Shown here in pieces: positions 22,853 through 25,098 of a stretch of DNA of 64,000 nt; the stretch's first letter is position 1; every line of letters starts with the position of its first letter. Made by a program: the position numbers and the translations under genes. Source of the DNA: Catenuloplanes indicus. GTDB taxonomy: Bacteria > Actinomycetota > Actinomycetes > Mycobacteriales > Micromonosporaceae. The notes beneath the pieces are model-generated. The model had not been told where the DNA came from. It searched no databases and worked only from the letters and a program-made list of their open reading frames with translations. Location: the NCBI RefSeq assembly GCF_030813715.1, contig NZ_JAUSUZ010000001.1, positions 2,046,001 to 2,110,000 of the forward strand, given 5' to 3'.

Positions 22853-23053
22853 ACCGGCAGGGAGGAGCGTCGGCGACGACCGGCGCCCCATGCCACCTGG
22901 CTTAAGTTGATCACGGAATCTGACCTGGGTTTCACGAAGCACCCCACCGCGTCTGCTCCCTGCCCGCGGTACCGCACGGGACGGCATCTGCACCGGCCAG
23001 GGACTCGCGGCCCAACCGGGTCCGCTTCAAGATCAAAATAGGCCGGGTGGCAT
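22853..23053. repeat. 200-bp hairpin element, copy 1
   Basis: This block recurs at 24187-24385 with high identity by eye. Its ends pair with each other: 22890-22901 (ATGCCACCTGGC) is complementary to 23042-23053 with one T-G wobble, followed inward by TTGATC (22907-22912) pairing with GATCAA (23031-23036). No open frame with a ribosome site crosses it. It may be a MITE-like element or a structured RNA; the paired ends co-vary with copy 2. Confidence 0.75.
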
Positions 23054-23300
23054 GCGGCGCCGGCACTCCTCCCTGCCAGCCTGTGGGCGCAAGCCCTCCA
23101 CCGTCATCGCTTTGCGCTGCTTACCTGACCACCCGCCCTACCCAAACACCCACATTTGCCTTGCATCCGCTCACTTCCTGACAACCAGCCGAAATGCCTC
23201 GCAACCGCGCAAGGCCCCACCCCCTACGGCGCACAGCACGCCCCGCTCCGGAGACTCGGCCCGCGCGGAGACTCGGCCCGCGCGGAGACCCGACCCGGCC

Positions 23301-23498
23301 CGGAGGCGCGGCCCGGCCCGGAGGCGCGGCCCGGCCCGGAGGCGCAGCCCGGCCCGGAGGCGCAGCCCGGCCCGGAGGCGCAGCCCGGCCCGGAGGCGCA
23401 GCCCGGCCCGGAGGCGCAGCCCGGCCCGGAGGCGCAGCCCGGCCCGGAGGCGCAGCCCGGCCCGGAGGCGCAGCCCGGCCCGGAGGCGCGGCCCGGAT
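23301..23498. repeat. 18-bp minisatellite, about 11 copies
   Basis: Consecutive copies of CGGAGGCGCAGCCCGGCC (some with GCG for GCA) fill this region, with degenerate copies on both sides (about 23250-23300 and 23530-23575). The unit length is a multiple of three, so all frames stay open, but no start or ribosome site supports translation. There are no unique spacers, so it is not CRISPR. Confidence 0.9.
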
Positions 23499-23734
23499 AC
23501 CCGATCCGGCCGGAGTGCCGATTCGGCACGGAGGTACGGCCCGGCCCGGAGGCGCGACCCGGTCCGGCGCGGGAGCGCCGGGCACCACACGAACGCGCGA
23601 AGCGCAGCGTCGGGCCGCGCTGCGCGGCGCGGCGCAGTGGCTGCCTCGGAGCGCGTGCGAAGCCCGCGTCCGAAATATCGCCATATCTCGCGCCGCCGCC
23701 GAGCGTCCGTGTCCGCGGGAATCCCACCCGCCCG

Positions 23735-23817
23735 GCTGAGTGATCAATCAGTGGTACAAAATGGCGATCAACTTCGATATTTGATCTCCTTTTCGCACCA
23801 CTGATTGATCACTCAGC
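23735..23817. repeat. 21-bp perfect inverted repeat with nested dyad
   Basis: The arms at 23735-23755 and 23797-23817 are exact complements (outer part GCTGAGTGATCAATCAG). The 41-nt centre contains a second dyad, GATCAA and TTGATC, and flanking AAAA/TTTT. Farther out, CGAAATATCGC near 23674 and its complement near 23890 also pair imperfectly, so the whole stretch of about 220 bp can fold back. It is AT-rich compared with its surroundings. Confidence 0.85.
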
Positions 23818-24186
23818 GCTGGCGGCGTCGCCTTCGCGCCGGGGCGGCGGAGAACCGCCGGACGCCTCACCCCCCGATATCGCGATATTTCGGGCATGGG
23901 GTGCGGCGGCCACCGGCTCGGTGGTGCGGTGCGAGATCTGCACGCCGCTGCCGGCTGCCTCGATCCAGCGTGTGCCGGGTGAGCAGCGTCGGCACGCCGC
24001 GAAGCGGCCACCCCCACACCTCGGTCTTCGATCCACACGGATGGAAGATGATCCCGGGCATGTGACCCGCCTGCGGCGGCGAGCGAAGCGCACGGCCTGC
24101 ACCGCCGGCGTCGGCCCGGGACCGGTCGCGTGCGAAGCACGTGGATCGCGGGCGGTGCGGGTGTGCACTGCCGGTGTCGAGGCGGG

Positions 24187-24385
24187 ACCGGCAGGCAGGA
24201 GCGCCAGCGACGACCGGTACCCCATGCCACTCAGCTTAAGTTGATCACGGTCCTGACCTGGGGTTCACAAAGCACCCCACCGCGTCCGCTCCCCGCCCGC
24301 CGCACCGCACGAGACGGCATCTGCGCCGGCGAGGGACTCGCGGCTCACCAGGTCCGCATCAAGATCAAAACAAGCTGAGCGGCAT
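24187..24385. repeat. 200-bp hairpin element, copy 2
   Basis: This is a direct repeat of 22853-23053. The terminal stem is kept: 24224-24235 (ATGCCACTCAGC) pairs with 24374-24385 with one mismatch, and TTGATC (24241-24246) pairs with GATCAA. Two stem positions differ from copy 1 on both strands in a compensating way. It ends 80 bp after the stop of the TetR gene (24466-25098). Confidence 0.75.
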
Positions 24386-24397
24386 TGGACCGGCGCC

Positions 24398-24454
24398 CGC
24401 GGGAGCACGCCCGGCGCAACCACGCCGGAAGCGGGAAAGGACCGTGCTCCCGCG
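24398..24454 (-). terminator. Hairpin downstream of the TetR gene
   Basis: Perfect 12-bp arms (CGCGGGAGCACG and complement) with a 33-nt loop containing a small inner hairpin lie just after the stop of the minus-strand TetR gene. The loop and right arm resemble a sequence at 32021-32087 near the end of the nhaA gene. Confidence 0.65.
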
Positions 24455-24465
24455 AAGCGGGGTGG

Positions 24466-25098
24466 TCAGTGCTCGCGCAGGTGGGCGAGGGCCGCGATGA
24501 GGCGGTCCTCGATGTCGGCGGGCCAGGGGAAGGCGGCGGTGACGGCGCGCTGGTGGGCGAGGCCGTGCAGGCCGAGCCAGAGCGCGATCGCGTCGGCCGC
24601 GGGATCGGTGCCGGTGGAGAGACCGGCGGCGGCGCAGTCGGCGAGCGCACCGGCGATCAGGGCCAGGCTGTCCGCGCCGAGCGTGGCCAGGTCCTTCTCG
24701 GTGACCGAGGACTCGCCGAGCGCCGGGACCCAGAGGCCGCCGAACATCGTGCGGTAGCGCTGCGGGTGGGTGCGCGCGAAGTGCAGATAGGCGGCGCAGA
24801 TCGCGCGCAGGCGGCCGCGCGGGTCTCCGGCGGCCGGCGCTGCCGCGCGCAGTGCCGCGTCCAGCTCGGCGAACGCGCTGCGGACCACGGCCAGCATGAT
24901 GGCCGGCTGGTCCGGAAAGTGCGGATAGATCGACGGTGCCGCGATGCCGGCGCGGCGGGCGATCGAGCGGAGCGTGAGCGCGCGTTCGTCGCCGGTCTCG
25001 TCGAGCAGGTCCACGGCCGCTTTGACGATCTCGTCGCGCAGCAGTCCGCCCTGGCCGCGGCGGTTACGGGAGCGGGCGGGGGCCTCGGTGTCGGTCAT
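24466..25098 (-). CDS. TetR-family regulator
   Basis: This 210-residue protein has an N-terminal HTH (ALTLRSIARRAGIAAPSIYP then HFPDQPAIMLAVV, about 40-72) and a TetR C-terminal domain of the WHG type (Trp-His-Gly region read here as LWLGLHGLAHQRA). It is divergent from a zinc-free MDR oxidoreductase with perfect dyads in the 76-bp gap, so it probably represses that gene. Confidence 0.9.
   Translation of the reverse strand: MTDTEAPARSRNRRGQGGLLRDEIVKAAVDLLDETGDERALTLRSIARRAGIAAPSIYPHFPDQPAIMLAVVRSAFAELDAALRAAAPAAGDPRGRLRAICAAYLHFARTHPQRYRTMFGGLWVPALGESSVTEKDLATLGADSLALIAGALADCAAAGLSTGTDPAADAIALWLGLHGLAHQRAVTAAFPWPADIEDRLIAALAHLREH

Follow-up and report, generated by a model that had tools for sequence, protein, structure and literature searches.

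MITEs, MITE-bounded composites (TIME-COMPs) and IS elements that use a dispersed repeat as their target are already known. MIC231 is a non-autonomous derivative of the IS4 family that carries a passenger gene. Within this family it belongs, as a mobile insertion cassette, to the IS231 branch (cited in PMC2266710). The hallmarks of subgroup IS4 are: i) ends of the form -AATR--------WTW----; ii) a length of 1400-1650 bp; and iii) direct repeats of 10-13 bp (PMC2266710; De Palmenaer et al. 2008), together with a marked conservation of the left and right arms of the target (PMC2266710). TIMEs and TIME-COMPs consist of paired miniature elements, in the same or in opposite orientation, that move the DNA between them; TIMEs are derived from the Tn3 family and produce 5-bp duplications, and TIME-COMPs carry genes (PMC4133298, PMC13367494). 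ISRm22, finally, is an IS4-family element that inserts in the REP sequences of S. meliloti and is flanked by 6-bp repeats (PMC1525189).

The feature that we analyzed lies in a stretch of 64,000 nucleotides of the Catenuloplanes indicus genome (the window). It is, with high confidence, a non-autonomous transposable element that is made up of a pair of MITEs with IS4-type ends and a gene-less core, together forming the composite 22888-24387. Like a TIME-COMP, the unit is bounded by two miniature elements with matching outer target duplications, but its ends are of the IS4 type, its duplications measure 10 bp and its core is without genes. Membership of the Tn3-derived TIMEs was considered and rejected on account of the IS4-type ends and the 10-bp duplication; the unit is TIME-COMP-like in its working only. 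It can be likened by description to MIC231, as both are non-autonomous and of the IS4 family, although the unit in the window lacks a passenger gene. Less usual is that the composite carries, just inside each of its ends, a half-site of its own target, the two being inverted.

The two MITEs have the same orientation and constitute the left (copy 1, 22888-23055, + strand, 168 bp) and the right end (copy 2, 24222-24387, + strand, 166 bp) of the composite. The MITE is thus 166-168 bp long, which falls within the 50-500 bp of bacterial MITEs, with ends CAATGCC...GGCATTG and a core bounded by CAATGCCACTYAGCTTA...TAAGCTRAGTGGCATTG; it has terminal inverted repeats, and neither a transposase gene nor a conserved ORF was found in it, in line with the initial annotation, which had described a hairpin element and not a protein gene. 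That description gave two copies with some four fifths or more of their bases alike, and we found ~86% identity over 201 bp; the intervals then assigned do contain the hairpin element, but their first ~35 bases belong to the target repeat and lie outside the MITE. Nor is the element limited to two copies: in the genome to which the window belongs (one chromosome of 9.18 Mb and a small second contig) we recovered ~18 copies of the ~166-bp MITE core, 13 of them complete and the others truncated or split, and the ends and inverted repeats of copy 1 are common to the ~17 other copies and to an IS4-family element. Identity of the MITEs to the query consensus ranges between 82% and 94%, and they are therefore old. 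Among the congeners, G003 has two full copies and G002 has one, the flanks of which match those of a copy in Catenuloplanes japonicus NRRL B-16061 (L085).

The same ends also terminate an IS4-family insertion sequence of 1550 bp that is present in six copies in the genome, with 0-2 nt differences; the near-identity of these copies implies that the IS is recent here. Its ends are perfectly inverted over a length of 28 bp (CAATGCCACTTAGCTTATTTTGATCTTG), and the first 17 bp of the MITE are nearly identical to the IS end. The transposase carries the YREK signature Y(2)R(3)E(6)K (as YHLRWEHETANDQLK), matches the profiles Nterm_IS4 and DDE_Tnp_1 (PF13006, PF01609) and passes the NCBIfam IS4 model NF033592 with 173 bits (cut-off 115). 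The IS resembles subgroup IS4 in the YREK signature, the length of 1550 bp, the -AATR ends (CAATG), the direct repeats of ~10 bp and the conserved target arms, whereas the WTW positions of the ends fit in part, and the MITE differs in that it has no transposase. All six copies, and the two copies in congener G001, share one insertion point, identical to the base, in a single kind of repeat and are flanked by exact direct repeats of 10 bp, being GACCGGTGCC or its complement and in one copy GACTGGTGCC. With the IS end placed at CAATGCC the duplication is 10 bp at every IS copy, and readings of 8 bp and 9 bp were dropped. In Actinoplanes, Kitasatospora, Acrocarpospora and others there are related ISs that have these ends and 10-bp repeats as well, but in other targets. 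The plasmid records contained distant IS4 transposases only and not the whole IS. Both inverted repeats of the genome's IS have ATTTTGATC, whereas the left end of the MITE has AAGTTGATC, a form typical of Actinoplanes and other relatives, and therefore the MITE may have its true origin in a relative of this IS that is now lost here. In the simplest inference the mobilising transposase would be that of the 1550-bp IS or of a close relative.

The target is a dispersed, intergenic repeat of ~75 bp, with consensus GGCAGGGAGGAGCGCCAGCGACGACCGGTGCCCGCGGGAGCATGCGG...CGCCGGAAGCGGGAA. Intact copies were found at 116 genomic sites (≤ 3 mismatches in 25 bases), against none for a reversed control pattern. 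The position of insertion within it is fixed, GCGAC|GACCGGTGCC|CGCGGG. A dispersed palindromic repeat that is interrupted at one and the same point by every copy has also been described for ISRm22 (PMC1525189), although the direct repeats are here 10 bp long and the ~75-bp actinobacterial repeat is unrelated. At the window locus the outer left half of the repeat (A half, 22856-22887, + strand) matches the consensus GGCAGGGAGGAGCGCCAGCGACGACCGGTGCC of the intact genomic sites, and the outer right half (B half, 24398-24437, + strand) reads CGCGGGAGCA...GCCGGAAGCGGGAA. The repeat was also considered as a structured RNA and rejected as such, the RNAalifold folds being weak and inconsistent on both strands. 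Within ten loci with intact target sites the Rfam search returned only an unrelated c-di-AMP riboswitch (ydaO/yuaA; L140 2622-2752, 92 bits).

That the composite 22888-24387 (1500 bp) entered the locus in a single event follows from its matching outer repeats and from an orthologous site without the unit. The outer repeats are the 10-bp target-site duplications of the whole unit, GACCGGCGCC at 22878-22887 and, identically, at 24388-24397; flanking duplications, which the initial annotation had named as a means to recognise a mobile element, are thus found with 10 out of 10 bases outside the composite unit. The variant GACCGGCGCC does not occur among the 100 intact target sites listed. Outer repeats are identical over all 10 positions in each of the three composites with two MITEs, the other two, with a MITE at each end, being 8557237/8558147 (outer repeats GGCCCCGGTC) and 1431664/1432655 (outer repeats GACCGGTGCC). 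For complete single MITEs that lie between an A and a B half, 8-9 of the 10 direct-repeat bases match wherever indels have not shifted the ends; both these single MITEs (8-9/10) and the composites (10/10) thus show a target duplication of the length found in the parent family. In the congener G004, a sister species, the locus with the same neighbouring genes (L210) has a single CCGACCGGTGCCCGCGGGAGCACGCCCGG exactly at the position of the unit, which is absent: the target is uninterrupted and its 10-bp sequence GACCGGTGCC is present in single copy. When the window flanks are joined, 262 of the 317 aligned bases match this site, with the 10-bp target once. The composite unit is likewise absent from the corresponding locus in G003 (L209). 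The orthologous intergenic region adjoins a TetR-type gene (24466-25098 in the window), the orthologue of which in G001 (L211) has one in-frame TGA.

The best surviving alternative, that two MITEs inserted independently 1.1 kb apart and do not form one composite, we consider improbable. Single insertions of this kind do occur, since other composites have a lone MITE or IS at an inner target site (8072726, 8313515, 4789242), and the own flanks of copy 2 match at 8 of 10 positions. The own flanks of copy 1, however, match in inverted (8/10) and not in direct orientation (4/10), the left flank of copy 1 and the right flank of copy 2 agree over all 10 bases of a rare variant, and it is the whole 1.5 kb, core included, that is missing in G004 and G003. 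Some six MITEs are flanked by A and A' halves. For those that are part of a two-MITE composite the matching outer repeats provide the explanation, and copy 1 has A and A' flanks because it is the end of a composite and not because it entered a palindromic target; an empty A-A' palindrome (GACGACCGG N0-20 CCGGTCGTC) was searched for and does not exist in the genome. In other MITEs with such flanks (e.g. 6904613, 8149781, 7357310) the far ends are missing or degraded. In Actinoplanes rectilineatus (L083 4927-5582) we observed a 656-bp unit that is bounded by two oppositely oriented miniature elements and has an outer repeat, GGCCACCCTC, that matches 10/10, which suggests that MITE-bounded composites occur in another genus. 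Actinoplanes palleronii has non-autonomous elements with the same ends, at L075 2243-2913 (671 bp) and L098 3753-4347 (595 bp), that have direct repeats of 10/10 or 9/10. For Actinoplanes and Catenuloplanes no paper on elements of this kind was found in the literature.

Returning to the composite, the segment between the two copies has the module order A'-ext-mid-81-bp palindrome-mid-ext2-A. Inverted target half-sites are thus located just inside both MITE ends: according to the module map, A' (23056-23077, - strand), the reverse complement of A, follows copy 1 and A (24190-24221, + strand) precedes copy 2. The gene-less core (23078-24186) is a dispersed block with 17 recognisable genomic loci, and in 15 of these 17, which were recovered with just the core as query, a MITE or IS is present at one or both ends. 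The core includes a tandem array of 18-bp units (GCCCGGCCCGGAGGCGCA; 23275-23570) and a near-perfect palindrome of 81 bp (GCTGAGTGATCAATCAGTGG...CCACTGATTGATCACTCAGC; 23736-23817). The palindrome is an independent dispersed repeat with many other places in the genome, where the remainder of the composite is often lacking. It is surrounded by an inverted repeat, CGAAATATCGCCATATC/GATATCGCGATATTTCGG, that pairs 23658-23687 with 23876-23905. The larger dispersed unit of ~230 bp around the palindrome (positions 611-842 of the core-search query) may represent a second MITE family. Tentatively, and with doubt on our own side, the composite could be seen as a gene-less platform of a self-nesting kind, which would take up more copies of its own mobilising family and so grow into mosaics. 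We know of no such mode of spread that has been described for MITEs of the IS4 type. Two facing pairs of intact targets, 0.5-1.1 kb apart and without MITEs, were observed at 7190080/7190634 (L196) and 1002514/1003607 (L197), and these are possibly empty platforms of the same composite.

The movement of the unit can be pictured as follows. An IS4-type DDE transposase, supplied most simply by the six-copy 1550-bp IS or by a close relative, would bind in trans to the outermost inverted repeats of the MITE pair; the whole 1.5-kb segment would then be moved as one piece, as with pairs of IS elements and of TIMEs (PMC4133298, PMC13367494), and would enter the target GCGAC|GACCGGTGCC|CGCGGG at a staggered cut of 10 bp. 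Shared ends, 10-bp direct repeats, a fixed target position and an empty orthologous site are the observations behind this scheme, and from these we infer the action of the transposase in trans.

It is very improbable that the element is a conserved structured non-coding RNA, the terminal stem of which is kept by compensatory mutation. The initial annotation left the choice between a structured RNA and a mobile hairpin (MITE), on the basis of base pairs that differ between the two copies, and these bases are as was stated: C22897-G23046 in copy 1 versus T24231-A24378 in copy 2, the wobble T22898-G23045 versus C24232-G24377, and G22899-C23044 versus A24233-T24376; the inner helix TTGATC/GATCAA is present as well. 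Moreover, the predicted folds of both copies are more stable than those of shuffled sequences (z -6.8 and -3.3), but the inverted repeats in any DNA would give the same result. The two double changes (C-G/T-A and G-C/A-T; columns 18 and 20 of alignment A1) are confined to copy 1, and the covariation that the initial annotation had proposed to look for did not exceed that of shuffles when 16 aligned copies were analyzed: the stem pairs in 89.4% of the cells versus 89.5% with partners shuffled among the sequences, both sides changed in 3 pairs versus 2.2 expected, and the covariation score was reached in 143 of 500 shuffles. The RNAalifold covariation term was about zero (0.28). An RNA on either strand would favour one type of mismatch, so that the near-equal counts of GT (20) and AC (18) mismatches in the stem argue against an RNA signal and fit a DNA symmetry. 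No family was matched in an Rfam search of the window, and the 10-bp duplications and the empty orthologous site mark an insertion. What stood of the earlier choice is therefore the MITE, by virtue of its IS4 ends, 10-bp duplications and empty site, and what did not is the RNA, given the null covariation and the lack of an Rfam match. The hairpin is the inverted-repeat symmetry required by the transposase and not an RNA fold; both ends are read by the transposase, which accounts for the conservation of the inverted repeats. There is next to no chance that the copies are REP/REPIN-type palindromic repeats maintained by a RAYT (Y1) transposase, for although they are dispersed, intergenic and palindromic, the genome gave no match to Y1_Tnp (PF01797) in a search that detected its controls, 10-bp duplications are a DDE feature, and the ends match an IS4-family IS.

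For genome scans these results hold a caution, in that pairs which seem compensatory in two copies can reflect inverted-repeat symmetry combined with one divergent copy. What appeared to be an orphan RNA becomes a mobile element for which a partner transposase, a target and a history of insertion can be named. For the Actinobacteria the locus documents a strict dispersed target of 116 sites for elements with IS4-type ends, and adds MITE-bounded composites that have such ends.
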